From the NCBI GenBank assembly GCA_902760595.1, contig CACWHI010000003.1, positions 62,001 through 126,000 on the forward strand: a stretch of DNA of 64,000 nt, given 5' to 3'. Under the pieces are notes generated by a model. The model worked only from the letters and a program-made list of their open reading frames with translations, was not told where the DNA came from and ran no database searches. The stretch is from an uncultured Eubacteriales bacterium (GTDB taxonomy: Bacteria; Bacillota; Clostridia; Christensenellales; Aristaeellaceae). Below are positions 8,211 through 36,615 of this stretch, in pieces; the first letter of the stretch is position 1, and each line of letters begins with the position of its first letter. Position numbers and translations under genes: made by a program.

Positions 8211-8374
8211 GTGGAGTGAGGAGGGAGGAGTGAGGAGTGAGGAGTGGCGGATGAAATCGCTGGCGCGATTTCTTTGTTATTGCGCATTAGCACCCAGGCA
8301 ATTGAACGATCGCTCAGGCGAAAGCCAAAGGGCTCGCGCCTGAACTCCTCACTCCTCATTCCTCACTCCTAACT
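8211..8374. repeat. GTGAGGA-type dispersed repeat, copy B (argJ/argB gap)
   Basis: The copy starts with an array of GTGAGGA heptamers, continues with GGCGG, then the GAAATCGCTGGCGCGATTTC hairpin. It ends with the inverted heptamer array (ACTCCTCACTCCTC). It fills nearly all of the 210-base gap between argJ and argB and is in the opposite orientation to copy A. Confidence 0.88.
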
Positions 8375-19843: not shown

Positions 19844-20089
19844 CGAGTGAGGAGCAAATTAGTGAGGAGTGATGAGTGAGGAGTGAGGAGCAAATTAGTG
19901 AGGAGTGAGGAGTGAGGAGTGATGAGTGAGGAGTTGTGGTGGAAATCGCTCCGCGATTTCTTTGATCATATGATCGAACATCCGATATCAGCCGTATCGC
20001 CTGCCGCAGGCAGACCTCAGCAATCATCCAAACGCCATAGCGAAGCGGCGTCGTTTGTACCTGCACTCCTCACTCCTCACTCATCACTT
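19844..20089. repeat. GTGAGGA-type dispersed repeat, copy C (isomerase/rhaD gap)
   Basis: The left end is an expanded heptamer array that itself contains two copies of a GTGAGGAGCAAATTAGTGAG unit. A GGAAATCGCTCCGCGATTTC hairpin follows at about 19942, then a unique centre, and then the inverted array CACTCCTCACTCCTCACTC. The centre differs from copies A and B, so only the ends are conserved. Confidence 0.85.
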
Positions 20090-22436: not shown

Positions 22437-23273
22437 ATGCAGTATGGGGGCAGTGACATGGAACCTGGCTCGTTTCAGGAGCTTCTGAACAGTGAACGGA
22501 TGCAGAATGCTCGTAATAAACTTACATTAGCCATTGGGAAAGATGAGTCTGGCGAGGTAGTTGCTTGTGATTTGATGACCACAGGACCTATTCTGATTGC
22601 CGGCGAGGAAGGCTACGGAATAACCGAATGCCTCAACGCAATGATTTGCAGTGTTTTGTATCGTACCAATTCTGATGAAACGAAGCTTATATTGGTGGAT
22701 ATAAAAAATGAAAAACTGCAGATATACAATAATTCCTCCCATTTACTCATCCCGGTTATTACTGATCCCAATAAAGCGCTGAAGATTCTTGCCTGGGCTG
22801 CGGAAGAAATGAACGAGCGGTTTTCTTTATTCGCCCGTCACTGCGTTTGTCAATTAAAACAGTATAACGACAGCTTAAAAGAAAAAGAGAAACGAAAACC
22901 GGAGATTGTCATAATCATCAACGGAATAGAAGACCTGGTGTCCCTAAACACAGAAGAAATCAATAGATGCTTAATTCCCCTTGTACGATTTGCAAAGCCG
23001 ACTGTTGGATTACATTTGATCATCGTGACACATCATCCATCATTGGATAACCTTCCCGTACCAATCAGAGTATGCTGCGGATGCTGCATTGCTTTTAAAA
23101 CATCGAGCTCAGAAACGAGTATGATGATTGTTGATCATTATGGAGCGGAGAAGCTGTCGGGGAAGGGAGATATGCTCCTGTCCGTATATCCTGAATTTTC
23201 GCCGAGATTGGTCAGATGTTGTACAATAACAGACGATGAAATCAGTAAAATGACTATGAGCGATCAGGTTTGA
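22437..23273 (+). CDS. FtsK/SpoIIIE motor-domain homologue with degenerate ATPase motifs
   Basis: The 278-residue protein aligns by eye across the whole FtsK/SpoIIIE translocase motor: ETKLILVDIKNEKLQIYNN, HLLIPVITDPNKALKILAW, EIVIIINGIEDLV and GAEKLSGKGDML all have direct FtsK counterparts. However the Walker A motif (normally GTTGSGKS) reads GEEGYGIT at residues 56-63, so the essential lysine is isoleucine. The Walker B aspartate-glutamate pair is Asn-Gly (residues 162-163). There are no membrane segments and no gamma DNA-recognition domain. It is unlikely to hydrolyse ATP. The region is distinctly AT-rich, pointing to transfer. The start is uncertain; ATG 22458 is an alternative. Confidence 0.8.
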   Translation: MQYGGSDMEPGSFQELLNSERMQNARNKLTLAIGKDESGEVVACDLMTTGPILIAGEEGYGITECLNAMICSVLYRTNSDETKLILVDIKNEKLQIYNNSSHLLIPVITDPNKALKILAWAAEEMNERFSLFARHCVCQLKQYNDSLKEKEKRKPEIVIIINGIEDLVSLNTEEINRCLIPLVRFAKPTVGLHLIIVTHHPSLDNLPVPIRVCCGCCIAFKTSSSETSMMIVDHYGAEKLSGKGDMLLSVYPEFSPRLVRCCTITDDEISKMTMSDQV

Positions 23274-23307
23274 GAGTATAACCTCAATGATTCTTATACC
23301 GGCTTAA

Positions 23308-23353
23308 CCCCGGCCCGACTTTGTCAATGAAGCGCTGCCGGGGCTTTTTCTTT
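23308..23353 (+). terminator. Terminator after the FtsK-like gene
   Basis: CCCCGGC (23308-23314) pairs with GCCGGGG (23337-23343) and is followed by CTTTTTCTTTT. The loop is long (22 bases). Confidence 0.6.
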
Positions 23354-23412
23354 TCCTGCTCCCGTGTGGCATCCCATGCCTGCGGACGAAGGCTGGCCCA
23401 GCATACGCAAAG

Positions 23413-23442
23413 GGGGCTGTGCACACCATCGTGCACAGCCCC
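23413..23442 (-). terminator. Hairpin downstream of htpG
   Basis: A 12-bp stem GGGGCTGTGCAC / GTGCACAGCCCC with a 6-base loop lies 16 bases past the htpG stop on the minus strand. The T-run is poor (CTTTG), so it may be a weak terminator or an mRNA-stabilising hairpin. Confidence 0.6.
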
Positions 23443-23457
23443 TGAAACAATGAGCGG

Positions 23458-25404
23458 TTATTTGTTTTCCGCGTCCCCGTTTTCCTGCGCCAGCATCTCC
23501 ACCAGCTTGTTGCTGCGGGCGATGAAGGCCTTCAGGTCCTCGGACTCGAGCGGGCGGGAGGAGAGACGGGCGATGTCGTAGAGCTGCTTCGCCAGCAGAT
23601 CGCGGGTCTCGCCGTCGGGCATCTTCTCCAGCTTCTGCACGGCGGGGGAACGGCGGTTCAGGATCAGCGTATAGCGGCTGGGGAAGGGGAAGTCCTGGCC
23701 GTAGTAGGAGCTCATCTCCTTGTAGCGGCGCACCTGCTCCTCCTCAGTCAGCACCACGGGCAGGGCCGGGTCGGCCAGCGCCTCGGATTTGACCACCAGC
23801 TCCTTCTGGTTCAGCGCCTTGCGGAAAAACTCCTGCATGGCCTCGTCGTCCAGCTTCTCGCCCTCATCGCCGTCCTGCTTGAGGCCGGCGATGTCCGCGT
23901 CCACGCGCACGAAGGCCAGGCCCTCGATGCCGCCGGAGTACTCCAGGAAGGACATGAAGTTGAGGTCGATCAGCGTGTCCATGACTACCACGTCGATGCC
24001 GCGCTCGGTGTACAGCTGCACGGCCGCCGCCTGGCGCTGGGGCTCGGTGGTGTAGAAGACCTTCTTCTCGGTCTTCTCACTGTTCTTGTCCTGGTATTCC
24101 TTCAGGGTCAGGTACTCGTCCTTCACCGTCTTGAACAGCAGGATGCCCTTGACCTGCTCGAAGAATTTTTCTTCCTTGGTGCAGCCGTACTTAACGAAGG
24201 GCGCGATATCGTTCCAGTAGCCCTCGAAGGTCTTGCGCTCGGTGTTGAACAGGGAGTTCAGCTTGTCCGCCACCTTCTTGGTGATGTGCTGGGACAGGCG
24301 GCGCACATAGCCGTCGTTCTGCAGGAAGGAACGGGACACGTTCAGCGGCAGGTCCGGGCAGTCGATGGCGCCCTTGAGCAGCATCAGGAACTCGGGAATG
24401 ACCTCCTTGATGTTGTCCGCCACGAACACCTGGCGGTTGAACAGCTTGATCTGGCCGTCGTTCACGCCGAAGTCCTTGCGGATGCGCGGGAAGTACAGGA
24501 TGCCCTTCAGGTTGAAGGGGTAGTCCACGTTCAGATGCACCCAGAACAGCGGATCCTCCCAGGTGTTGAACAGCTTGTGGTAGGCGGCCTTGTACTCCTC
24601 GTCGGTGCAGTCCTTCGGGGCCTTCAGCCACAGCGGATGCGTGTCGTTGATGGGCTTGTCCTCGGGGGCCTCGGTGTTGAACTCGTCGTCTGCCGCCTCG
24701 TCCCCGGGCTTGCTTTCGTCGCCCTCCTTGGCTTCCTTGGCCTTCTCGGCTTTCTTCTTTTCTTCCTCGGCGCGGCGCTTTTCGGCCTCGCGGATGGCCT
24801 CCAGGTCCTCCAGGTAGATCGGGATGGCCATGTAGCCGCAGTAACGGTTCAGCACCTCGCGCACGCGGGTGCCTTCCAGGAATTCCTCCTCGCCCTCCAT
24901 CACGTGCAGGGTGATGGTGGTGCCGCGGGTGGTGCGGCCGCCGTCGCGCATGGTGAAGGCCATGCCGTCCTCGCTCTCCCAGATCACGGGCTTGGCGCCC
25001 TCCTGCCAGGAGAGGGTGTCGATGGTCACCTTGTCCGCGACCATGAAGGCGGAATAGAAGCCCAGGCCGAAGTGGCCGATGATGCCGCTCTGGTCCGCGC
25101 CCTCGTAATTCTTCAGGAACTCCTCCGCGCCGGAGAAGGCCACCTGGTTGATGTACTTCTCCACCTCGTCGGCGGTCATGCCGATGCCGTTATCGGTGAA
25201 GCGGAGCTCCTTCGCTTCCTTGTCCACGGTCACGGTCACGCGGAAGTCGTCCTCCGCGCCGGGGTTCGCCAGCTTGTACTTGGTGATGGCGTCGCAGCCG
25301 TTGGATACCATTTCACGGATGAAAATGTCTTTGTCCGAATAAAGCCAGCGCTTGATGACCGGCATGATATTTTTCGCGTCAATGGAAATATTGCCCGATT
25401 GCAT
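23458..25404 (-). CDS. htpG: Hsp90-family chaperone HtpG
   Basis: HtpG is the bacterial Hsp90 ATPase chaperone. The 648-residue protein has the GHKL ATP site (REMVSNGCDAITK, DNGIGM, GHFGLGFYSAFMV), the middle domain and the C-terminal dimerisation domain. An unusual feature is a highly charged segment of about 45 residues (residues 205-250, rich in Glu, Lys and Ala) between the N-terminal and middle domains, resembling the charged linker of eukaryotic Hsp90. An AGGAGG site precedes the ATG. The gene is likely heat-inducible through HrcA, since a perfect CIRCE lies upstream. Confidence 0.96.
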   Translation of the reverse strand: MQSGNISIDAKNIMPVIKRWLYSDKDIFIREMVSNGCDAITKYKLANPGAEDDFRVTVTVDKEAKELRFTDNGIGMTADEVEKYINQVAFSGAEEFLKNYEGADQSGIIGHFGLGFYSAFMVADKVTIDTLSWQEGAKPVIWESEDGMAFTMRDGGRTTRGTTITLHVMEGEEEFLEGTRVREVLNRYCGYMAIPIYLEDLEAIREAEKRRAEEEKKKAEKAKEAKEGDESKPGDEAADDEFNTEAPEDKPINDTHPLWLKAPKDCTDEEYKAAYHKLFNTWEDPLFWVHLNVDYPFNLKGILYFPRIRKDFGVNDGQIKLFNRQVFVADNIKEVIPEFLMLLKGAIDCPDLPLNVSRSFLQNDGYVRRLSQHITKKVADKLNSLFNTERKTFEGYWNDIAPFVKYGCTKEEKFFEQVKGILLFKTVKDEYLTLKEYQDKNSEKTEKKVFYTTEPQRQAAAVQLYTERGIDVVVMDTLIDLNFMSFLEYSGGIEGLAFVRVDADIAGLKQDGDEGEKLDDEAMQEFFRKALNQKELVVKSEALADPALPVVLTEEEQVRRYKEMSSYYGQDFPFPSRYTLILNRRSPAVQKLEKMPDGETRDLLAKQLYDIARLSSRPLESEDLKAFIARSNKLVEMLAQENGDAENK

Positions 25405-25469
25405 GATGTGCCTCCTCTTAGGTGTTGATCCCGCCGCCCGGACCGTACGCGGTCCGACGCCGTGCGGCT

Positions 25470-25498
25470 ATTATAGCACCCTTCTTCGCATATTGCAA
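25470..25498 (-). promoter_or_regulatory. Sigma-A promoter of htpG
   Basis: TTGCAA (25493-25498), a 17-base spacer and TATAAT (25470-25475) on the minus strand, about 65 bases before the htpG start. Confidence 0.8.
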
Positions 25499-25505
25499 CA
25501 AAAAA

Positions 25506-25532
25506 TTAGCACTCAATCAAAACGAGTGCTAA
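25506..25532. promoter_or_regulatory. CIRCE operator (HrcA site)
   Basis: A perfect CIRCE inverted repeat, TTAGCACTC - 9 bases - GAGTGCTAA. It lies 7 bases upstream of the htpG -35 box. HrcA, known to repress heat-shock genes through this site, is the expected regulator. Confidence 0.95.
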
Positions 25533-25581
25533 CAATGCGATCGGCGCGCTCGCGCTCGGGCAGACGCGTGAACGGTTTGTC

Positions 25582-25610
25582 TTGTCTATCCCCGGCCCGC
25601 GGCATATAAT
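25582..25610 (+). promoter_or_regulatory. Promoter of the CDF transporter gene
   Basis: TTGTCT (25582-25587), 17 bases and TATAAT (25605-25610), about 90 bases before the transporter start. Confidence 0.65.
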
Positions 25611-25697
25611 ATCCTGTTGAATGGCTGTCAATATATCCTGGCTGACGCATGGGTTCATGATGCCATATTTTCATGAAAGAATGGCGAGAGGCGCGGA

Positions 25698-26843
25698 ATG
25701 ATGAGCGGGACAAATGAACGTGATACGAACGGGCGGCTTCCCGGCGGCCGGGAGGCGGTGATCGTGCGCGCCAGCCTGATCGGCATCGGGACCAACCTGG
25801 CGCTGGCGGCGGGCAAGGCGGTCGCCGGGCTGATGGCGCGCTCCATCGCGATGGTGCTGGACGCGGTCAACAACCTGAGCGACGCGCTGTCCTCGCTGAT
25901 CACCATCATCGCGACCCGGCTGGCGGGACGCGCGCCGGACAAGCACCATCCCCTGGGCCATGGGCGCATCGAGTACCTGAGCGCGCTGATCATCGCGGGC
26001 ATCGTGCTGTACGCGGGCATCGCGGCGCTGCTGGAGTCGGTCCGGAAGATCATTTCTCCGGTAACGCCGGAATACTCCGTCCTGTCTCTCATCGTGCTGG
26101 GCGTCGCCGTCGCGGCCAAGCTGTTTCTGGGCTATTATTTCCGCAGGGTGGGGCGGGAGACGGATTCCGGCTCCCTGCGCGCCTCCGGCACGGACGCCCT
26201 GTCGGACGCCTTCCTCTCCGCCTCAGTGCTCGCCGGCGCGGTCGTCTATATGACCAGCGGCCTGAACCTGGAGGCTTGGATAGGCGTGCTGATCTCCTGC
26301 TTCATCCTCCGCGCGGGTATCGGCTTGATGAAGGAAGCCGTGGACGACCTGCTGGGCAAGCGCCTGGACCCGGAGATCACCGCGGCGATCCGGCAGACCA
26401 TCCTCGCCGAGGAGCCGGTCAGCGGCGTCTTTGACCTGATCCTCAACAGCTACGGCCCGGAGCGCATGATCGGCTCCGCGCATATCGAGGTGCCGGACAC
26501 CATGACCGCCGCCGCGATCGACCGGCTGGAGCGCCGCATCGCAAGCCGCGTGCTGGAAAAGCACGGCGTGCTGATGACGGCCATCGGCATCTACGCGAAA
26601 AACAGCACCGACGACCGCATCGCGGAGATGCGCAGCCGGCTCACGCGCATGGTCATGTCCCACGACGGCATCCTGCAGGTGCATGGCTTCAGCGTCAACG
26701 AGGAGGAAAAGACGATCCTCTTCGACGTGATCGTGGATTATGACCGCGCGGACCGCAGGGCAATCTTCGAGCATATCTCCCGGGAAGCGGCGGAAATGTA
26801 CCCGGACTATGACTTCCGGCTGGTGATGGACATAGATATTTGA
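25698..26843 (+). CDS. Cation diffusion facilitator, manganese-type site
   Basis: The 381-residue protein is a CDF antiporter with six predicted membrane segments and a cytoplasmic C-terminal domain extended at its end. The two metal-site motifs read N58-xxx-D62 (in LDAVNNLSDALSS) and D166-xxx-D170 (in GTDALSDAF). Zinc transporters have HxxxD or DxxxD at the first site and HxxxD at the second, whereas the N-D-D-D combination is typical of manganese-exporting CDFs. Mn2+ (possibly Fe2+) efflux is therefore the best guess. The stop is followed directly by a dispersed repeat. Confidence 0.9.
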   Translation: MMSGTNERDTNGRLPGGREAVIVRASLIGIGTNLALAAGKAVAGLMARSIAMVLDAVNNLSDALSSLITIIATRLAGRAPDKHHPLGHGRIEYLSALIIAGIVLYAGIAALLESVRKIISPVTPEYSVLSLIVLGVAVAAKLFLGYYFRRVGRETDSGSLRASGTDALSDAFLSASVLAGAVVYMTSGLNLEAWIGVLISCFILRAGIGLMKEAVDDLLGKRLDPEITAAIRQTILAEEPVSGVFDLILNSYGPERMIGSAHIEVPDTMTAAAIDRLERRIASRVLEKHGVLMTAIGIYAKNSTDDRIAEMRSRLTRMVMSHDGILQVHGFSVNEEEKTILFDVIVDYDRADRRAIFEHISREAAEMYPDYDFRLVMDIDI

Positions 26844-27305
26844 TGGAGTGAGGAGTGAGGAATGAGGAGTGAGGAGTGGAGGAGTGGCGGAAGAAACTTC
26901 TCCGCTGCGCTGCGAAATATTCTTTGATTGTTGAGGCGCTCTGCGCGATATGGTTTTCTGTGGCCTGCCTTGGGACGGTGTTTTACTCTTGCAGAGCAGG
27001 AAAAATGTAGATAGCTTCTGTCATACCAGTAATTTTGTTGGGTCAACCCCCACTGTCGTTCTGAGCCGGCCCCCTTCGTCAGGGGGCCGAGCGAAGAATC
27101 TGTTCTGCTGTTCCAAGTTCGACAAAGAAGGTTCACGCTACGCCAACAGGGCGGGCGCCCCAGTGTGGCGCCCGCCCTGTGACGCGTAAACGCAATCAGG
27201 CCTATCCGATACAAGCCGATCAGAAAGAAAAAATATTCCGCGGAACAACTCAATTTCCTGCGTGCGTGCGTTCCGGCGTTCGACCTGAACTCCGCACTCA
27301 TTTTC
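26844..27305. repeat. GTGAGGA-type dispersed repeat, copy D, with insertions
   Basis: A heptamer array (GGAGTGAGGAGTGAGG and variants) begins right after the CDF stop. The arm continues with GGCGGAAGAAACTTCTCCG and TTCTTTGATTGTTG. The matching far end (CCTGAACTCCGCACTC) is at about 27277. The interior carries unrelated repeats, including a TTCTGAGC...GAGCGAAGAATCT unit near 27058 and the hairpin repeat at 27134. No gene is seen in this 677-base interval before the primase gene apart from repeats and the regulatory region. Confidence 0.75.
27134..27192. repeat. GGCGGGCGCC hairpin repeat, copy 1
   Basis: CAGGGCGGGCGCC and GGCGCCCGCCCTG form a near-perfect hairpin (27147-27179), flanked by TACGCCAA and GACGCGTAAACGC. 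The same flanks and arms recur at 30861-31038. Confidence 0.8.
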
Positions 27306-27315
27306 CCCCCTGTTA

Positions 27316-27381
27316 CGTTTCTGATCGCATTTTGATATGGTTTTGATATGGTTTTGATACGCTTTTGATCCTGTTCTGATA
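27316..27381 (+). repeat. Six phased 11-bp direct repeats (iteron-like)
   Basis: Units of the form NNN-TTTTGATA start at 27316, 27327, 27338, 27349, 27360 and 27371, with TTCTGATC/TTCTGATA variants at the two ends. The 11-bp period places them on one face of the helix. The array ends exactly at the -35 element of the promoter leading into the primase and helicase genes. Confidence 0.85.
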
Positions 27382-27410
27382 TTTACGCGCCAAAGATTTG
27401 CTGCTATACT
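27382..27410 (+). promoter_or_regulatory. Promoter of the primase/helicase module
   Basis: TTTACG (27382-27387), 17 bases and TATACT (27405-27410) with an extended TGC motif. The weak -35 next to the repeat array suggests an activator or replication protein binding at the repeats. Confidence 0.6.
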
Positions 27411-27421
27411 ATGAACATCAG

Positions 27422-27448
27422 ATCCGTCCGGACATCCGGGCGGATTTT
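27422..27448 (+). terminator. Leader hairpin before the primase gene (possible attenuator)
   Basis: ATCCGTCCGG / CCGGGCGGAT with a 4-base loop is followed by TTTTGATTT, within the 110-base leader. It has terminator form, so read-through may be controlled. Confidence 0.5.
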
Positions 27449-27520
27449 GATTTGGGGAAAGGAGCTCCTCATTCCTGACCGCATCAGTACACGCCTGACC
27501 ACACCAGCACAGGAGGGATC

Positions 27521-28090
27521 ATGAGAAACGTATTCAGCATCGTCAAAGCGGCTGTCACAGCCCGGCAGGCCGCGGAACACTACGGGCTGGAGGTGGGGCG
27601 CGGCGGCATGGCCCGCTGCCCGTTCCACGCAGACAGGCGCCCGTCCATGAAGGTGGACGAGCGCTATTATTGTTTTGGGTGCCATGAGACCGGCAGCGTC
27701 ATCGACCTGACCGCCAGGCTGTTCGATCTCACGCCCTATGAAGCCGCCCTGAAGCTGGCGGCGGACTTCCACCTGGACCCGGACGCCCCGCCGCCAGCGC
27801 CCGCGGCCCCGGCGAAATGGCAGCTCGAAAGGCAGGAGCGGGAGCTGGAGGCGCGCTGCATCCGGGCGCTCACCCGCGAGGAGCGCGAGCTCAGGACCAG
27901 GCTGGAGGCCCTCGCCCCGCAGTCGTCGGAGCAGGGCTTTTCCCCGGAGTACCCGGCGGTCTCCCGGAAGCTGCAGGGCACCACGTATTTTCTGGACCTG
28001 CTGTACGCGCCTGACGCCGAAACGCGCAGGGGAGCCGCCGAAGCCCTGCGCAACTGCGGGGAGCTCGAGCGGCTCGAGAAAAGCGCATGA
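27521..28090 (+). CDS. CHC2 zinc-finger primase-like protein
   Basis: The 189-residue protein starts with a DnaG/phage-type CHC2 zinc finger: ARCPFHADRRPSMKV followed by YYCFGCHETGSVIDL, giving the C-x2-H-x17-C-x2-C pattern. No TOPRIM catalytic domain follows; the rest is a charged helical region. Such truncated zinc-finger proteins occur next to D5-type helicases in phages, plasmids and integrative elements. AGGAGGGATC precedes the ATG. Immediately after the stop a dispersed repeat begins, and the helicase gene follows about 480 bases later. Confidence 0.88.
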   Translation: MRNVFSIVKAAVTARQAAEHYGLEVGRGGMARCPFHADRRPSMKVDERYYCFGCHETGSVIDLTARLFDLTPYEAALKLAADFHLDPDAPPPAPAAPAKWQLERQERELEARCIRALTREERELRTRLEALAPQSSEQGFSPEYPAVSRKLQGTTYFLDLLYAPDAETRRGAAEALRNCGELERLEKSA

Positions 28091-28091
28091 A

Positions 28092-28536
28092 TGAGTGAGG
28101 AGTGATGAGTGATGAGTGAGGAGTGGCGGTAGAAACTGCGCAAAGCGCAGTTTCATACTAATCTTAGGTTAAAACAGCGAAAGATTGTACCCGTTTTTTT
28201 GTTCTGGCAAGGAAGACATCCGAAAGCGTACCCGAAGGGACGTATCCTGCCGCCGCCTGTGGCGGATAAAGGCAGGAGGAGTCCCAATGAGGCACAGAGT
28301 GCAGGATGCGGCAGCATACTGCACGACAATGCCGAATTGAGGGCGCAGCCCGGTGAGGGTGGCTGACGCAGCCAGGGCGGAAAAGGCGGGTGCAAGATGA
28401 GCTGCTTTAATCTGAGATTAGTATCAATCTATATCGCGCGGAGCGCCGCAACAGTTGAAGAATACTTCGCAGCGAAGCGGAGAAGTTTCTTCCACAACTC
28501 CTCACTCCTCACTCCTCACTCCACACTCCTCACTCG
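28092..28536. repeat. GTGAGGA-type dispersed repeat, copy E, split by an inserted element
   Basis: The left heptamer array, GGCGG and the GAAACTGCGC/GCGCAGTTTC hairpin are at 28092-28155. The right arm (GCCGCAAC, a long hairpin region and the inverted heptamers) is at 28424-28536. The two halves are separated by the 268-bp element at 28156-28423. The right arm read backwards matches the left arm of copy D over about 65 bases. Confidence 0.85.
28156..28423. mobile_element. MITE-like element with 23-bp terminal inverted repeats
   Basis: The ends TACTAATCTTAGGTTAAAAC... and the inverted TACTAATCTCAGATTAAAGC... match at 20 of 23 positions. Both ends abut TA, compatible with the TA target duplication of IS630/mariner elements. 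The inside has no gene but contains strong nested hairpins (for example CCTGCC-CCGCC-GGCGG-GGCAGG around 28238-28270). It is too short for a transposase and would need one in trans. Confidence 0.7.
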
Positions 28537-28569
28537 CTAAAAAACCCCAATCAAAGGAGGACATAACAA

Positions 28570-29922
28570 ATGAAAGAATTAGCCCCCGAAACGCCGTCCT
28601 GGTTCGACGGCTCAAAGATCAATGAAAGTCTGTTCTGCCAGGAGTTCATCAAGCGGCACAGGCTCGCTTACGCGGAGGGCTCGTTTTTCACGCCGAAGGG
28701 CCGCGTGGCGGATGAAAACGCGATCCGCAAGGCGGTGTACCTGCTGGTGGAGCCGCTGCTGACCTCCGGCGTGACGCAGAAGATCAGCAGCCTGATCGAC
28801 CTGATGAAGATCGCCGCGGCCACGAACGACCTGTGCCCGCAGACGGACCGCATCCACCTGGCCAACGGCACCCTCTTTCTGGACGGGCGCTTTGAGCCGG
28901 GACAGAACGAGATCGTCCGCGCGCGCTTTCCCATCGACTATATGCCTGACGCGAAGCAGCCCGCCCTGTGGCTGCATTTCCTGAACGGGCTGCTCTATGA
29001 GGAGGACATCCCCACCCTGCAGGAGTTCATCGGCTACTGCCTGATCCCCAGCAGCAAGGGCCAGCGCATGATGGTGATCAAGGGCAAGGGCGGCGAGGGC
29101 AAGAGCGTGGTGGGCGCGGTGCTCGCCCGGTTGTTCGGGACGAACCTGAAGGACGGCAGCGTGGGCAAGATCTCCGAGAACCGCTTCGCCCGCGCGGATC
29201 TGGAAAACATCCTGCTGATGGTGGACGACGACATGCAGATGGAAGCCCTCAAGCAGACCAACTATGTCAAGTCCCTGGTCACCGCCCACGGCATGATGGA
29301 CCTGGAGCGCAAGGGCAGACAGAGCTACCAGGGCTGGCTGTACGCCCGCATCCTGGCCTTCTCCAACGGCGACCTGCAAAGCCTGTATGACCGCAGCGAC
29401 GGCTTCTACCGCCGCCAGCTGATCCTGCAGACCCGGGAACGCCCCGAAAACCGGACGGATGAGCCCGACCTCGCCGAGTGGATGACCGCCGAGCTGGCCG
29501 GCATCTTCAACTGGGCCTTCGCGGGCCTGCGGCGCCTGATCGGCAACAACTGGCACTTCACCGAGAGCGAGCGGGCGAAAGCCAACCGCGAGCTGGTGAA
29601 GCAGGACGCCAACAACGTGCTCGCCTTCATGGAGGCGGAGGACTTCGTCCGCTTCGGCCCCGGCCTGTCCATCAGCTCCAAGGACCTGTACCGCGTGTAC
29701 TGCGTGTGGTGCGATGAGAACGCGTTCTCGCCCGTCAGGCCCCGCAGCTTCAGCGATTTCCTGATCGCGAACCAGAAGAAGTACGATATTGAACCCAACA
29801 ACCGCCAGCTCAACGCCGCTGGTCAGCGCGTCCGCGGCTTTTCCGGCATCGGGTCGCTGCGCTGCGTCCTGCAAAGGCCGAACCGGATCCCGGGGGAAGC
29901 CGGGCCTGCCGATGAGCCCTGA
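28570..29922 (+). CDS. D5/P4-type phage-plasmid helicase (SF3 ATPase)
   Basis: This 450-residue protein is a D5N/P4-family replicative helicase found in phages and mobile elements. Evidence: the D5N region (TDRIHLANGTLFLDGRFEP, LWLHFLNGLLYEEDIPTLQEFIGYCLIP read in parts), the Walker A motif IKGKGGEGKSVV, the Walker B-like ILLMVDDDMQ and sensor motif ILAFSNGDLQSLYDRSDGFYRR. A C-terminal winged-helix region is expected around VYCVWCDENAFSPV. GGAGG precedes the ATG. With the CHC2 protein it forms a primase/helicase replication pair; no integrase, relaxase or capsid gene is nearby. Confidence 0.9.
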   Translation: MKELAPETPSWFDGSKINESLFCQEFIKRHRLAYAEGSFFTPKGRVADENAIRKAVYLLVEPLLTSGVTQKISSLIDLMKIAAATNDLCPQTDRIHLANGTLFLDGRFEPGQNEIVRARFPIDYMPDAKQPALWLHFLNGLLYEEDIPTLQEFIGYCLIPSSKGQRMMVIKGKGGEGKSVVGAVLARLFGTNLKDGSVGKISENRFARADLENILLMVDDDMQMEALKQTNYVKSLVTAHGMMDLERKGRQSYQGWLYARILAFSNGDLQSLYDRSDGFYRRQLILQTRERPENRTDEPDLAEWMTAELAGIFNWAFAGLRRLIGNNWHFTESERAKANRELVKQDANNVLAFMEAEDFVRFGPGLSISSKDLYRVYCVWCDENAFSPVRPRSFSDFLIANQKKYDIEPNNRQLNAAGQRVRGFSGIGSLRCVLQRPNRIPGEAGPADEP

Positions 29923-29978
29923 CGAGTATGGGCGAATCGCTGCGTACGTACATACCAGCCGAAGAAGGAGACAGCATC

Positions 29979-30185
29979 ATGGAATTTACCATTATGATCG
30001 ATAAGAACGAGTACGAGGCCATGTACCAGACCGTGATGAAGGAGGTGATGAGAAGGTATCCTTATTCAAAGGTCATCTATATCGACCTGACAAAGGAGGA
30101 GTATGCGGAGTACGCGGCCCTTTCCTACTGCAGGAAGCTGCAGGCGCTGAGGGAGGAAGGAGCGAAGGTCCAAAGCGAGGAGTGA
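29979..30185 (+). CDS. Small hypothetical protein of the replication module
   Basis: The 68-residue protein (MEFTIMIDKNEYEAMYQTVM...) is mixed-charge with no membrane segment or recognised domain; helical content looks high. The ATG at 29979 follows AAGGAG at a good distance, while an in-frame ATG at 29928 lacks a site and overlaps nothing useful. It lies 56 bases after the helicase, so it is likely co-transcribed. The last three codons (Ser-Glu-Glu) and the stop are supplied by a fragment of the GTGAGGA repeat. Confidence 0.6.
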   Translation: MEFTIMIDKNEYEAMYQTVMKEVMRRYPYSKVIYIDLTKEEYAEYAALSYCRKLQALREEGAKVQSEE

Positions 30186-30195
30186 GGAGTGATGG
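30174..30195. repeat. GTGAGGA repeat fragment, copy F
   Basis: AGCGAGGAGTGAGGAGTGAT is a short remnant of the heptamer array. It contains the stop codon of the preceding small gene. Confidence 0.7.
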
Positions 30196-30232
30196 GCGGC
30201 TGTTTTATCGGAGGGAGTAAGCGGCTTTCATA

Positions 30233-30249
30233 GTGTACGTACGTACGCA
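30233..30249 (+). repeat. GTACGTAC palindrome site 1
   Basis: GTGTACGTACGTACGCA occurs here and, in inverted orientation, at 30794-30810. A shorter variant GCGTACGTACAT is at 29942. The core GTACGTACGTAC is itself palindromic, as expected for a protein-binding or resolution site. Confidence 0.6.
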
Positions 30250-30770
30250 GATAACGGGCTATACTCCCCCGTAGTTTTGGCGCAATGGGGGCCTGCCGGT
30301 GCGGGCCCCCTCTATTCTATATATTGATTGTCGTATAAAAACACTAATCGGGTCTATCCCAAACTCTGTGTAAACTGCAAACGATGAGTATGAAACATCT
30401 GGGGGCAATGAACGACGCCTCCATTGCCGACTGAGTTTATTCACCGGAGCTGTAGTTGTAAACCAATTTGCGCATAACTCTTGACACTATCGACACTATT
30501 TAACGAATAATGAAAGTGTTATTAAAGAGCCTCCCTCTTTGTAATAGCATTATAATATAGCAGGATATCTTTTGCATTTCAAGTAAAATCACAAGATGTC
30601 GTGAGAGGCTGTGAACATGTCAAAAGAGAATCCTATTAAAATTAGTAAAAAGTACTTGACAAAATGTTTCAGGAAAAGCCGATCCCCGCGAAGTACCTGA
30701 GAAGGGTCCAGCAGGTGATCGGATAAACGGGTACATGGTTGTTTTGCCGGATTGCACTCCGCCAAAATCT

Positions 30771-30794
30771 CCGGGGAACAACCCCCGGTTTTTT
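30771..30794 (+). terminator. Terminator-like hairpin in the repeat region
   Basis: CCGGGG pairs with CCCCGG across a short loop, followed by TTTTTT. It ends right at the second GTACGTAC site. No gene is recognised upstream, so it may belong to an unannotated small RNA. Confidence 0.55.
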
Positions 30795-30810
30795 GCGTAC
30801 GTACGTACAC
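30794..30810 (-). repeat. GTACGTAC palindrome site 2 (inverted)
   Basis: The reverse complement of the 17-bp site at 30233, about 550 bases away. Confidence 0.6.
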
Positions 30811-30860
30811 ATTGCATGGCCTGTCATTCGCCGGAGAAAAAGACAGGCGGGCTTGAATTG

Positions 30861-31038
30861 GATATGCCTGGTTGACCTTACGCCAACAAGGCGGGCGCCC
30901 CAGTGTGGCGCCCCTACAGGGCAACCGGCGATACGTTCCTTGCCCAACAATGTGCAGTTTGTTTGTCGGCACGGAATCAATCGACGCTTACGCCGTAGGG
31001 GCGCCACACTGGGGCGCCCGCCCTGTGACGCGTAAACG
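30861..31038. repeat. GGCGGGCGCC inverted-arm repeat, copy 2
   Basis: The element begins GATATGCCTGGTTGACCTTA and has 28-bp arms at 30890-30917 and 30995-31022 that are exact reverse complements. The middle holds CGGCGATACGTTCC and GGCACGGAATCAATCGACGC. The right flank ends in GACGCGTAAACGC like the copy at 27134. Confidence 0.8.
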
Positions 31039-31137
31039 CTGCGGGGGATGCGCCGAATGCATGTTCTCACGCACGGCACGGATGAAATTGAAATTGTTCC
31101 GTCGGGAAATTCATTGATGCCTGCAAGATCAATGTTG

Positions 31138-31300
31138 GATATGCCTGGTTGACCTTACGTCAACGGGGCGGGCGGGCCGGGTGTCCCGCCCCTACGGCCG
31201 ACCGGTGAAACGTTCTTTACCTGACGATCAGAAACCGTTTGCCGGTACGGAATCAATCGACGCTTACATCGTATGGGCGGGACACCGGCCATTTCGCGCC
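31138..31300. repeat. GGCGGGCGCC-related repeat, copy 3 (diverged)
   Basis: It starts with the same GATATGCCTGGTTGACCTTA and keeps the GGAATCAATCGACGCTTAC core, but the arms read GGGCGGGCGGGCCGGGTGTCCCGCCC and the inverted GGGCGGGACACCGGCC (quoted in parts). It is a direct copy of the repeat 277 bases upstream with compensating changes in the arms. Confidence 0.75.
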
Positions 31301-31325
31301 CTGAACCTGTGTTTTGCGCTCTTTC

Positions 31326-31353
31326 TTGCGTTTTTCAAATTATGTGATATAAT
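31326..31353 (+). promoter_or_regulatory. Promoter of glgP
   Basis: TTGCGT (31326-31331), 16 bases and TATAAT (31348-31353) with an extended TGA before the -10. Confidence 0.7.
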
Positions 31354-31433
31354 AGCACGGCATAGCCGCGCTTTTCTGCGTCTGTGCTGCGAGCAACGAC
31401 ACCCTATGCCGAAAATACAGGAGGATTTACCGC

Positions 31434-33881
31434 GTGCCAACTACGAAATTCGATAAGGAATCCATCAAGCAGTCCATTCTGGGAAAGCTGCAGCGCTATA
31501 ACGGCAAAACGCTGGAGGATGCGACTGAATACCAGATCTATTACGCCATCGCTTCCACCGTGCGCGACCAGGTGATGCAGAAGTGGTCGGAGTACCGCCA
31601 GAAGGATAAGAACTATCTGGGCAAGCGGCTCTATTACCTCTCTGTGGAGTTCCTGACCGGGCGCAGCCTGATGTGCAACATGCTGAACCTGTGCTCCACC
31701 GATAACTATATGCAGGCCATGAAGGAGCTGGGCATCGACTGGCGCAAGGTGGTGCGCGAGGAGCCGGAACCCGGCCTGGGCAACGGCGGCCTGGGACGCC
31801 TGGCGGCCTGCTTCATGGACTCGCTCTCTTCCCTCGACATCCCGGCGATGGGCTGCACCATCCGCTATGAATACGGCCTGTTCCGCCAGAAGCTGCTGAA
31901 CGGCCAGCAGGTGGAGCTGCCCGACGACTGGCTGGAGAACGGCAACGTCTGGGAAGTCGCCGCCATGGAGGACAGCTGCGAGGTGCACTTCGGCGGCTGG
32001 ATCGAGGAAAAGCAGGAAGACGGCCGCATGATGTTCATCGAGCACGATTACAACACCGTGCAGGCGGTCCCCTACGATATGCCCGTGGCCGGCTATGACA
32101 CCAAGACCGTCAACACCCTGCGCATGTGGCGCGCCAAGTCCTCCCACTCCATGGACCTGAAGGACTTCAACTCCGGCAACTACGTCAAGGCCATGCAGGA
32201 GGAGGAGCTGGCGGCGGTCATCTCCAAGGTACTGTATCCCGAGGACAACCATTACGAGGGCAAGGAGCTGCGCCTGAAGCAGCACTACTTCTTCACCTCC
32301 GCCACCCTGCAGTACGCGCTGAAGGACTTCAAGCGCCGCTTCGGCTGCAACTTCCAGCTGTTCCCCGAAAAGGTGACCATCCAGATCAACGACACGCATC
32401 CGGGCCTGGCGATCCCCGAGCTCATGCGCCTGCTGATCGACCAGGAGGGCCTGGGCTGGGATGAGGCCAGCGCCATCGTGCAGCGTACCGTGGCGTACAC
32501 CAACCACACCGTCATGTCCGAGGCGCTGGAGCGCTGGCCGGAGGAGATGGTGCGCAAGCTGCTGCCGCGCATCTACATGATCCTGCAGGAGATCAACCGC
32601 CGCGTCTGCGCGCGCCTGGCGAACCACTACCACAACGGCATGGATCCGCGCATCGCGGGCATGGCCATCACCGCCTACAACATGGTGCACATGGCCAACC
32701 TGTGCGTGTCCATGAGCTATTCCGTCAACGGCGTCAGCCAGCTGCACGGCCAGATTCTCAAGGACCAGACCTTCCACGACTATTATGAGATCATGCCGGA
32801 AAAGTTCACGGCGATCACCAACGGCATCACGCACCGCCGCTGGCTGATGGTGGCGAACCCCGGCCTGCGCGAACTGATCAACGACACCATCTGCGACAAG
32901 TGGGTCCGCGAGCCGGAGCGCCTGAAGGAGCTGCTGCCCTACCGGGACGACGCCGCCTTCCGCGACCGCTTCGCCCGCATCAAGCGCGACAACAAGATCG
33001 CCTTCAGCAACATGCTCTCCGCGCGACAGGACATGACTGTGGACCCGAGCTTCCTGTTCGACGTCCAGGCGAAGCGCCTGCATGAGTATAAGCGCCAGCT
33101 GCTGAACGCGCTGCACATCATGGTGCTGTACAACCGCATCATGGACGACCCGAACTTCACCATGCAGCCCCGTGCCTTCGTCTTCGGCGCGAAGGCGAGC
33201 CCGGCCTACTACATGGCCAAGCAGATCATCCGCCTGCTGCTGGCGATCAGCAGGCTGATCAACAAGTCCCCGCGCGCGCGGGAGATGCTGCAGGTCGTCT
33301 TCCTGGAGAACTACGACGTCTCCAGCGCCGAGTGCCTGATGCCCGCGGCGGACCTGTCCGAGCAGCTGTCCCTGGCCGGCAAGGAGGCCAGCGGCACCGG
33401 CAACATGAAGTTCATGATGAACGGCGCGGTGACCATGGGCACCATGGACGGCGCGAACATCGAGATCTGCGACGCGGTGGGTCTGGACAACATCTATATC
33501 TTCGGCATGCGCGCCAACACCGTCCACGACCTGGACAGCGAGGGCAGCTACCAGCCCATGCACATCTTCGAGACCAACGGCGAGCTGCGCCGCGCACTCA
33601 CGCAGATGATCGACGGCACTCTGTTCCCGGAGAACGCCGCGGCCGTGCAGGAGATCTACCACAACCTGCTGTTCCGCGACACCTATTACGTGCTCAAGGA
33701 TTTCGGCTCCTACTCCATGGCCCAGCGCCGCGTGGACCACGACTACCAGGACCGTGAGAAGTGGCTGCGCATGGCGATCACCAACACCGCCTGCTCCGGC
33801 GTCTTCTCCTCGGACCGCACCATCCGCGAGTACAACGACAAGATCTGGCACATCGGCACCAGAAACTGGACGAAGAAATGA
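31434..33881 (+). CDS. glgP: Glycogen/starch/alpha-glucan phosphorylase
   Basis: GlgP releases glucose-1-phosphate from glycogen. The 815-residue length is typical. Family motifs include YLSVEFLTGRSL, EPEPGLGNGGLGRLAACFMDS, INDTHP, NGITHRRW and the PLP-lysine motif ASGTGNMKFMMNG. The start is GTG, 8 to 9 bases after AGGAGG. The stop overlaps the start of the next gene (ATGA), an unusual coupling to a secreted peptidoglycan-binding protein. No other glycogen genes are in the window. Confidence 0.96.
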   Translation: MPTTKFDKESIKQSILGKLQRYNGKTLEDATEYQIYYAIASTVRDQVMQKWSEYRQKDKNYLGKRLYYLSVEFLTGRSLMCNMLNLCSTDNYMQAMKELGIDWRKVVREEPEPGLGNGGLGRLAACFMDSLSSLDIPAMGCTIRYEYGLFRQKLLNGQQVELPDDWLENGNVWEVAAMEDSCEVHFGGWIEEKQEDGRMMFIEHDYNTVQAVPYDMPVAGYDTKTVNTLRMWRAKSSHSMDLKDFNSGNYVKAMQEEELAAVISKVLYPEDNHYEGKELRLKQHYFFTSATLQYALKDFKRRFGCNFQLFPEKVTIQINDTHPGLAIPELMRLLIDQEGLGWDEASAIVQRTVAYTNHTVMSEALERWPEEMVRKLLPRIYMILQEINRRVCARLANHYHNGMDPRIAGMAITAYNMVHMANLCVSMSYSVNGVSQLHGQILKDQTFHDYYEIMPEKFTAITNGITHRRWLMVANPGLRELINDTICDKWVREPERLKELLPYRDDAAFRDRFARIKRDNKIAFSNMLSARQDMTVDPSFLFDVQAKRLHEYKRQLLNALHIMVLYNRIMDDPNFTMQPRAFVFGAKASPAYYMAKQIIRLLLAISRLINKSPRAREMLQVVFLENYDVSSAECLMPAADLSEQLSLAGKEASGTGNMKFMMNGAVTMGTMDGANIEICDAVGLDNIYIFGMRANTVHDLDSEGSYQPMHIFETNGELRRALTQMIDGTLFPENAAAVQEIYHNLLFRDTYYVLKDFGSYSMAQRRVDHDYQDREKWLRMAITNTACSGVFSSDRTIREYNDKIWHIGTRNWTKK

Positions 33882-34618
33882 GACACAATGCCTGGACGCG
33901 CCGGCTGACGGCGCTCTGCGCGCTGATGCTGCTCCTGCTGGCGGCACCCGCCGCGCGGGCTGAGGAAAGCCCCCTCGGCGAGCGACTGGCCGGCCTGGAC
34001 GCTTCGGAGCTGACGGAGCTGCGTGAGCTGATCGACCTGCGCCTGCGCGCGCTGGGGGAGTACCCCTTCGTGAAGCTGAGCGAGGGCAGCAGGGGCGACG
34101 AGGTCACCGCGCTGCAGAAGCGGCTGAAGGAGCTCGGGTATTTCACCGACGAGCCGGACGGCCGCTACCGCCAGAAGACGGTCAACGCCATGAAGGCCTT
34201 TGAAAAGGCCGCCGGGCTCAAGCGCGACGGCGCGGCCTCCGTGGAGGATCAGAAGGCGCTGTTCGCGGACGCCGCCCCGGCGCAGCCGACGCCGACCCCG
34301 TCCCCGACGCCCAAGCCCACCCGTACGCCCAATATCGCGAAGGACTACGAGCGGTTCGATTTCCGCCTGGCGGGCCTGATGCCGGAAAAGTACGCCGGCA
34401 GCCGCTACCGGGTGACAGGCCGCCTGCTGGCCCTGCTCGAGGACGGGCGCTGGCTGGTGGAGTTGGACGACGGGCTGGTGGCGGTGCAGCGGACCCCCGC
34501 GGAACGGGAAATTGGCAGCACGGTCAGCGTATGGGGCGAATACGCCGGGCTGACCGCCTACGAGAGCGAGAGCGGGCCGGTGACCCTGCCGCTGATCAAC
34601 TGCGAACATCTGGAATAA
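33878..34618 (+). CDS. Secreted peptidoglycan-binding-domain protein
   Basis: The 246-residue protein has a signal peptide (positive start, LCALMLLLLAAPAARA, then AEE). A PG_binding_1 domain follows at about residues 65-130 (GSRGDEVTALQKRLKELGY, DGRYRQKTVNAMKAFEKAAG). After it come a Pro-Thr linker and a C-terminal OB-like domain with YRVTGRLLALLEDGRWLVEL. The ATG at 33878 overlaps the glgP stop. The export signal and wall-binding domain place it at the cell wall. No enzymatic domain is visible. Confidence 0.82.
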   Translation: MRHNAWTRRLTALCALMLLLLAAPAARAEESPLGERLAGLDASELTELRELIDLRLRALGEYPFVKLSEGSRGDEVTALQKRLKELGYFTDEPDGRYRQKTVNAMKAFEKAAGLKRDGAASVEDQKALFADAAPAQPTPTPSPTPKPTRTPNIAKDYERFDFRLAGLMPEKYAGSRYRVTGRLLALLEDGRWLVELDDGLVAVQRTPAEREIGSTVSVWGEYAGLTAYESESGPVTLPLINCEHLE

Positions 34619-34638
34619 CACCTATTCAGGAGGTTGCC

Positions 34639-35136
34639 ATGAGAAAATTTGCGGTATGCCTGTTACTGATCGGCATCATCGTCGCCGCCGCCGCCATCGG
34701 CGTGGGCATCCTGGTCCGGGATAACGAGGAGGTCCAGGCCATCTCGGCCGTGACGGGCATCCCGATCACGCCGGACAGGGGCGTGGAGCTGCGCCAGGCG
34801 GCGCTGAACGGGAACCTGAAGATGTCCGGTATCGTTTCCTTCCTGCTGCGGGTCTATCCGTATATCACCCGGGTCACGACGATCAGCGCGGCGGTGGCGG
34901 CCTTCGGGCTTCTCTTGCTGATCCTGGTGCTGATCATCAAGCCGGTGCTGTCCATCATCGTGCTGATCCTGATCGCGGCGGTCATCTATTTCGGCTCCCG
35001 CGGCTATCTCGGGGCAGAGGTGGGCAGCTTCGTCAATATGATCATCGGATACCTGAAGAGCTTCTTTGATCAGATCGTCAGCTTCGTCAACGAAACGAAG
35101 ATCGTCGATACGATCCAGAACCTGGTCAATCGGTAA
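34639..35136 (+). CDS. Hypothetical membrane protein
   Basis: The 165-residue protein has an N-terminal hydrophobic segment (residues 4-26), a pair of long hydrophobic segments (about 80-125) and an amphipathic C-terminus. AGGAGG precedes the ATG. It follows the peptidoglycan-binding gene by 20 bases and is probably in the same transcript. I recognise no family. It could be a small membrane partner of the secreted protein. Confidence 0.7.
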   Translation: MRKFAVCLLLIGIIVAAAAIGVGILVRDNEEVQAISAVTGIPITPDRGVELRQAALNGNLKMSGIVSFLLRVYPYITRVTTISAAVAAFGLLLLILVLIIKPVLSIIVLILIAAVIYFGSRGYLGAEVGSFVNMIIGYLKSFFDQIVSFVNETKIVDTIQNLVNR

Positions 35137-35145
35137 AATTAGCGC

Positions 35146-35174
35146 TTGCCACATGGAGTTTTTTCCTGTATAAT
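35146..35174 (+). promoter_or_regulatory. Promoter of the PrsA-like foldase gene
   Basis: TTGCCA (35146-35151), 17 bases and TATAAT (35169-35174), about 45 bases before the gene. Confidence 0.78.
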
Positions 35175-35217
35175 AGGCGGGCTGTGATTATAGCACAAGT
35201 AAGGAGATGCATTTGCC

Positions 35218-36615
35218 ATGCAAAAGAAACTGTTTCTGCTGATGCTGCTGGTAGCCAGCATCGCGCTGAGCGGCTGCGCTCTCGTGGTCAAGGATCCCGT
35301 GCGCGACGCGCAGCAGGTCATCGTGGATGTGAACGGCGAAACGGTCGACAAGCAGACCATGAACCGCGCGATCTCGGATTATACCAACTACATGATGAAC
35401 TATTACTACCAGATCTACGGCATGATGGGCCAGTCCTTCAACCCGTCCAGCATCGATACCAGCGCCTATCCCCAGCAGGTGGTGGACAGCCAGGTCCGTC
35501 AGCTGGTGCTGAAGCAGAAGTTTGCCGCCATGCCTGAGCTGGCCTTCACCGAAGAGGAAGAGAAGGCGATCGAGGAAGACGCCCAGAAGGAATATGACGA
35601 GCAGATCGAGCAGATCAAGACCACGTACCTGGCCGACTCCGAGAAGGAAGGCGACGAGCTGACCGCCGAGGCCCAGGCCTACGCCCTGACCCTGGACGAC
35701 CGCTTCACCCTCGACTATGTCAAGGAGCACGTCCGCGAGGAAAAGATGCAGGAAAAGCTGCGCGAGTACGCCATCCGCGACGTGGCCGTGACCGAGGACG
35801 AGATCAAGGCTGAATTCGACAGCCGTGTGGAAGAGGCCAAGACGAATTACGAGTCCAACCTGTCCTCCTTCGGCTCTTCCGTGAACAACGGCAGCACGGT
35901 GTACTACCGTCCGGCCGGCTACCGCTACGTCAAGCAGATCCTGGTCGGCTTCCCCGATGAGCTGAAGACGGCGCTGAATACCGCCAACAACGAGAAGAGC
36001 ACCGCCCAGACCGCCGTGAACAACGCGCAGACCGCGCTGGACAGCAACACCAGCGCCCTGGCGGAGGAAGGCATCACCGACGAGGCCAAGGCCGAGCTGG
36101 AAGCCGCCACCGAGGGCCTGCAGAAGGCGCTGGACGACGCCAAGGCCGACCTGGAGCAGAAGACCGCCGCCGCCGATCAGGCGCTGGCTGACGCCTACGC
36201 CGCCATCGAGCCCACCGTGGAAGAGGTCAAGGCCAAGCTGGCCGCGGGCGAGGACTTCGACGCCCTGATGGAGCAGTACAATACCGATCCCGGCATGCAG
36301 CGCGAGCCCGGCAAGACCAACGGCTACGCTGTCTGCGAGGGCTTCTCCTCCTTCGATCCGAACTTCGTGTCCGCCGCCATGGCCCTGGAAAAGATCGGCG
36401 ACGTATCCGAGCCTGTCAAGAGCGACAGCTACGGCTACTACATCATCCGCTACCAGGCTGACATCGAGGAAGGTCCGGTCGCCCTGGACGACGTCCACAG
36501 CACCATCGAGTCTTCCGTCCTCAGCGACAAGCAGGACAAAACCTACGACGAGACCGTTGAAAAGTGGACCGGCGAGGCCAGCGTCAAGACCTACATCGAG
36601 CGCCTGAGCAACTGA
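35218..36615 (+). CDS. PrsA/SurA-like lipoprotein peptidyl-prolyl isomerase
   Basis: The 465-residue protein starts with a lipoprotein signal (lipobox LSGC, Cys20). A SurA-N-like helical domain follows, then a parvulin PPIase domain beginning YVKQILVGF (about 237-245) and resuming with EEVKAKLAAGEDFDALMEQYNTDPG (about 335-359). Between these two parvulin elements sits an alanine-rich coiled coil of about 80 residues (248-330), which normal parvulins lack. It should assist folding of exported proteins on the outer face of the membrane. The gene is monocistronic, with its own promoter and terminator. Confidence 0.88.
   Translation: MQKKLFLLMLLVASIALSGCALVVKDPVRDAQQVIVDVNGETVDKQTMNRAISDYTNYMMNYYYQIYGMMGQSFNPSSIDTSAYPQQVVDSQVRQLVLKQKFAAMPELAFTEEEEKAIEEDAQKEYDEQIEQIKTTYLADSEKEGDELTAEAQAYALTLDDRFTLDYVKEHVREEKMQEKLREYAIRDVAVTEDEIKAEFDSRVEEAKTNYESNLSSFGSSVNNGSTVYYRPAGYRYVKQILVGFPDELKTALNTANNEKSTAQTAVNNAQTALDSNTSALAEEGITDEAKAELEAATEGLQKALDDAKADLEQKTAAADQALADAYAAIEPTVEEVKAKLAAGEDFDALMEQYNTDPGMQREPGKTNGYAVCEGFSSFDPNFVSAAMALEKIGDVSEPVKSDSYGYYIIRYQADIEEGPVALDDVHSTIESSVLSDKQDKTYDETVEKWTGEASVKTYIERLSN

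Follow-up and report, generated by a model that had tools for sequence, protein, structure and literature searches.

Gene transfer agents (GTAs) are among the closest described systems. In Caulobacter crescentus, control of the GTA has two tiers, with GafY as activator and GafZ as antiterminator; the site of the latter is found between −35 and −10, and the first gene is followed by the terminator (PMC11150451). RcGTA of Rhodobacter capsulatus is made of domesticated phage genes located at several loci, which respond to one direct activator, GafA (PMC6363796; review PMC11841831). A known difficulty in the field is that GTA loci dispersed over a genome resemble prophage remains (PMC11841831). 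Here we analysed a 64-kb stretch of DNA from a rumen bacterium (the window) in which a tandem repeat array precedes a primase/helicase module. Our data suggest that these repeats are a control switch common to the scattered modules of a tamed phage, which would be turned on together by one putative regulator.

The array lies on the forward strand (27319..27381) and is composed of six WWWTGATACG-like units at exact 11-bp spacing, which start at 27319 (TTCTGATCGCA), 27330 (TTTTGATATGG), 27341 (TTTTGATATGG), 27352 (TTTTGATACGC), 27363 (TTTTGATCCTG) and 27374 (TTCTGATATTT). At 27308, CCCTGTTACGT is a weaker, possible seventh unit. When up to 3 mismatches were allowed, the two-unit pattern matched five times in the window and always inside the array, against 0.09 matches expected from shuffles. 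Self-identity at a lag of 11 reached 41/55 at 27318, compared with a maximum of 34 among 100 dinucleotide shuffles at lags 9-13. The phased six-unit array reported in an earlier note on this DNA is thus borne out, and so is its description of a weak −35 and an extended −10 at the array end: the promoter TTTACG-N17-TATACT (27382..27410, forward strand) has its −35 (TTTACG, 27382-27387) in contact with the last unit, and its −10 (TATACT, 27405-27410) is preceded by TGC (extended −10 sequence TGCTATACT). Two features had escaped that first reading, namely the array copies elsewhere in the genome and a terminator-like hairpin followed by TTTTG right behind the promoter (27420..27448, forward strand), which begins about 10 nt past the −10 and has a modelled stem of −19.8 kcal/mol. 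An Rfam search of the window matched no known RNA family at this leader. Head-to-tail 11-bp direct repeats with seven conserved and four A/T-rich positions, ending at or near the −35, are known from PhoB/OmpR-type or SARP-type promoters. The array shares this 7+4 arrangement with A/T tracts, a likeness in which the spacing alone fits and which is a lead only; it differs from those promoters by its number of units (up to 10 across the copies described below), its genome-specific units and the phage modules that are its targets.

Three genes follow on the same strand. The first encodes a 189-aa CHC2 zinc-finger (primase-type) protein (27521..28090; PF01807, E=4e-12; phrog_11992), the second a 450-aa DUF5906/D5-like primase-helicase (28570..29922; PF19263, E=2e-17; PHROG 864 'DNA primase', E=3e-79). 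The third is a small conserved ORF of 85 aa (29928..30185, start perhaps at 29980), for which no family match was found and which also stands behind the helicase in two related metagenome-assembled genomes, Clostridia bacterium RGIG2628 from goat omasum (G002) and uncultured Clostridiales bacterium RUG13503 (G004). The CHC2 protein announced in the earlier note is confirmed; the D5-type helicase is a fair assignment as a fold family, the only Pfam match being DUF5906. The module is bounded by host genes, a cation-efflux transporter (25698..26843, forward strand; PF01545) and a glycogen phosphorylase (31434..33881, forward strand; PF00343). Among the ORFs from 22437 to 36615 we found no integrase or mobilisation gene: besides the module they are FtsK-like, efflux, phosphorylase, PG-binding or PPIase genes, or have no match. 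The proposal that the module replicates a small integrated element is thus unsupported at this locus, where it sits directly between the efflux and phosphorylase genes. Comparison with plasmids gave no match for the module, and that with phages gave partial ones, about 70% identical and confined to stretches of the helicase or CHC2 protein. The FtsK/SpoIIIE-like gene at 22437-23273, which is A/T-rich and stands alone in GC-rich host surroundings, appears to be a foreign remnant of separate origin.

Searching the source genome itself (G000, in which the window belongs to contig C3) revealed a second array on contig C52, and a looser pattern revealed a third on C13. The C52 array precedes an operon (module M1) encoding terS, terL, portal, scaffold, major capsid protein, connectors, holin and lysin. 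The C13 array precedes a second module (M2) composed of a major tail protein (MTP, phrog_41), a small protein, a phrog_1194 protein and a tail hub-like protein, whose AlphaFold model was too poor for use (pLDDT 57). A tape-measure gene was not found within the M1 or M2 loci. The modules on C3, C13 and C52 are unlinked and each is flanked by host genes at either end, and all three arrays precede phage modules. Since the array is found before the C52 and C13 operons as well, it is a property of a promoter set and not of the helicase module (M3).

Arrays of this class are present in seven of the eight genomes of the genus, namely G000 and its relatives G001, G002, G003, G004, G005 and G007; none was found in G006, whose assembly is 68% complete. 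The array-promoter architecture of the window recurs in 28 further copies. The full anatomy is shared by 28 of 29 copies: an 11-bp array, a −35 that touches it, an extended −10 and a terminator-like hairpin within about 60 nt. G002 and G004 carry five copies each, eight of these ten preceding phage modules. The modules are the same as in G000, to which G004 adds a DnaD-like gene (M4), so that the cassette-bearing modules, scattered among host genes, comprise packaging, head and lysis (M1), tail (M2), primase/helicase (M3) and DnaD-like (M4) functions. The same architecture is found with TTTTGC units in G005, before a contiguous head-tail-lysin cluster, with ACATGATAC units in G007, before a tail module, and with TTTTCAACG units in the four copies of G001, one of which precedes a CHC2 and helicase pair. 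At least two of these four lie between convergent genes without a downstream gene on the same strand. G003 has 11 copies with units AAACGCTAC and variants, most of which are flanked by convergent genes and have no downstream gene on their own strand, and one G002 copy also has no same-strand gene behind it. These lone copies in G003, G001 and G002 are not explained by plain operon control. At the G003 loci (L157-L166) the eleven arrays, each of 110 bp and with promoter and hairpin, are near-identical; the lone ones may be scars, a spreading cassette or small-RNA genes.

A generic pattern run over 308 genomes of the family gave 10 matches, 9 of them in this genus, and its reversed control gave none. 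A strict genome-wide scan returned only G002, G004 and chance AT-rich matches, mostly in a phytoplasma. The strict pattern had no match in viral contigs, and a TTTAC-anchored scan of 80 viral relatives of the capsid gene found no array. A sequence model built from promoters of this set recovered its input copies and no convincing further copy of their code. Look-alike promoters in G029 and G058 were left out of the count because they are located in integrase- or conjugation-type elements. With their AATTGAGCGCAAAATGG units, CTTTACA and hairpin (L081:9425-9560 in G029; L082:9300-9400 in G058), they possibly represent a related control class. The G029 promoter is followed by an SSB-like gene in an element carrying an integrase and two sigma-70-like genes; L082 includes TraG-like and BhlA holin genes.

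In G000, G002 and G004 the unit words cluster according to genome (p=0.01), with no clustering according to module (p=0.68), and those of G004 are distinct from those of G000 and G002 taken together (p=0.0008). The units of G000 and G002 are TGATAC/TGATAT/TGATCG; in G004, across five promoters, they are mainly TGATAG/TGAACG/TGCACC. One trans-acting protein is the best explanation for unlinked sites that shift together in one genome. The unit code thus points to a single co-evolving, putative trans-acting factor.

The leader hairpin is likewise a constant element. A hairpin with a T-run at or below −10 kcal/mol is present in 28/29 leaders versus 51/300 intergenic controls, and at or below −15 kcal/mol in 24/29 versus 31/300. 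The hairpins of G003 differ in sequence and keep their pairing, and at four pairs both partners have changed. Nearly all of these transcripts would begin with a terminator, which suggests antitermination or attenuation. Two CHC2/helicase modules that have no 11-bp array, one in a human-gut phage record (L278 1891-3793) and one in the family genome G197 (L309), also show a strong hairpin upstream, near a promoter-like stretch.

Most of the module genes are intact and show purifying selection. For most of them dN/dS is 0.15-0.4, without stops in the alignments, and a few short genes have higher values. The dS of the main M1 and M2 genes is 0.43-0.73, compared with 0.40-0.42 for the host genes argF and carB. 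Intact M1 genes are found in three species and an intact tail hub in four. M2 occupies the argF/carAB region in three genomes, and the M4 site has the same position among host genes in G002 and G004. The host neighbours of M1 and M3 differ between species, which shows that those modules moved or were inserted separately. Decay is also visible: the helicase frame is broken in G004 (C8) and truncated in G007, and the MTP is missing at the G004 M2 locus. In G002 (C9), an array copy without the DnaD-like gene stands at the very M4 locus where G004 retains this gene, which means that a lone copy can be the scar of a lost module. A rumen viral contig (L178 4074-4928) encodes a capsid protein 85% identical to that of C52, while the C52 terminase and portal are unmatched there, which shows exchange of genes with real phages.

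The array is probably the binding platform of a putative trans-acting activator serving a dispersed phage-derived regulon, with hairpin-based antitermination or attenuation. The earlier suggestion of activator sites on one helix face gains support here, since the contact between array and −35 recurs across several species and ahead of different operons. From this arrangement we infer that a DNA-binding protein would fill one helix face of the array head-to-tail and touch RNA polymerase at the −35, and that it would switch all modules on together. The hairpin would be a second lock that needs read-through, by antitermination or attenuation, and we propose that the modules would therefore be silent without the regulator. 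With less certainty, we infer that the whole may be a domesticated, GTA-like or dispersed-prophage system with a replication module of its own. A more specific version of this idea is tentative: in this genus of rumen Clostridia, GTA-like scattered phage modules, including one for replication, might be kept together by a spreading array-promoter-terminator cassette, the binding code of which would be rewritten genome-wide along with one regulator.

The tandem phased repeats adjoining a CHC2/D5 module had also been read as iterons of a replication origin that autoregulates this module, and relatives of the module are indeed found in mobile elements. Helicase homologues occur in 50/308 family genomes, those of other genera being 60-68% identical, and PHROG 11992 and 864 pairs of Firmicutes mobile elements and phages consist of the same CHC2 and DUF5906/D5-like genes. 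These pairs lack the array and, in gut records, several of them adjoin integrase or mobilisation genes, unlike the window locus. The array was absent upstream of 27 homologous CHC2/helicase modules of other genera (best lag-11 score 27/55). The expectation that it precedes orthologous helicases therefore holds within the genus (G000, G002, G004 twice and G001) and fails in other genera; it was not found at the damaged G007 copy. Together with the mobile-element neighbours, this indicates that the module family is of mobile-element origin and that the array belongs to the genus. As the same array also precedes head and tail operons that have no replication genes, is coupled to a −35, a −10 and a hairpin in nearly every copy, and in many G003 and G001 copies has no gene behind it, we rejected an iteron-type origin, which we consider highly improbable.

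The lone copies lend themselves to another explanation, in which the cassette is primarily a small-RNA gene or a spreading promoter element yielding a short hairpin RNA, with phage modules merely downstream of some copies. The convergent-gene setting of most G003 and at least two G001 copies fits this idea, as does the retention of promoter and hairpin in lone copies whose leader sequences differ. It accounts poorly for the phage modules behind 3/3 G000 and 8/10 G002 and G004 copies, and the G002 array at the gene-bearing locus of G004 indicates that lone copies can have another origin; we regard it as rather unlikely. Broken or missing genes, the lack of an integrase near the modules and of a tape-measure gene at M1 and M2 would agree with decaying, scattered prophage remains whose late promoter was duplicated and which have no current function. 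Such remains would not be expected to keep M1 and the tail hub intact in several species, with mostly low dN/dS and host-like dS, nor would neutral arrays stay precisely in phase and change in concert within one genome, so this reading appears quite unlikely. The activator-binding platform remains our preferred interpretation.

By analogy, the anatomy of 28/29 copies, in which the −35 is preceded by putative activator sites and the structural genes by a terminator, fits a GafY/GafZ-like function. Phage-derived genes, a dedicated activator (here putative) bound upstream of the promoter, one or more terminators to bypass and accessory genes located elsewhere are the points in common with the Caulobacter system (PMC11150451). 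Here, in contrast, the array is upstream, the hairpin lies at the transcript start, and the modules, each with a copy of its own, include one for replication. The resemblance to RcGTA is in the scattered domesticated phage loci under one direct, here putative, activator. Phage-derived packaging and structural genes (terL, portal, scaffold, MCP, connector, MTP, tail hub, holin, lysin) are present, as in GTAs, and so is their distribution over several unlinked host loci (C3, C13 and C52 in G000). GTAs have no replication genes of their own, whereas here the CHC2/helicase module bears the same promoter cassette. Because of this module, and with particles only hypothetical, the system is not classed as a GTA. 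If our interpretation is true, a GTA-like regulon of Clostridia has been found through its regulatory signature and not through gene homology, which sidesteps the resemblance to prophage remnants (PMC11841831). These genomes would also form a natural series in which one DNA-recognition code changed jointly at unlinked promoters, and both the regulator and the read-through of the hairpin are directly testable.

Repeats of two other kinds were also observed in the window. Palindromic GGGCGGGCGCCCCAGTGTGGCGCCC repeats flank the primase/helicase module (27138-27195 and 30876-30920) and recur at 53974 and 54058, and similar repeats are present in L009. GAGTGAGGAG repeats and their reverse complement are found at 8214, 19845-19935, 26846-26890, 28093-28130, 28498-28535 and 30180; they are MITE-like, often forming inverted pairs in intergenic gaps, and also occur within phage modules.
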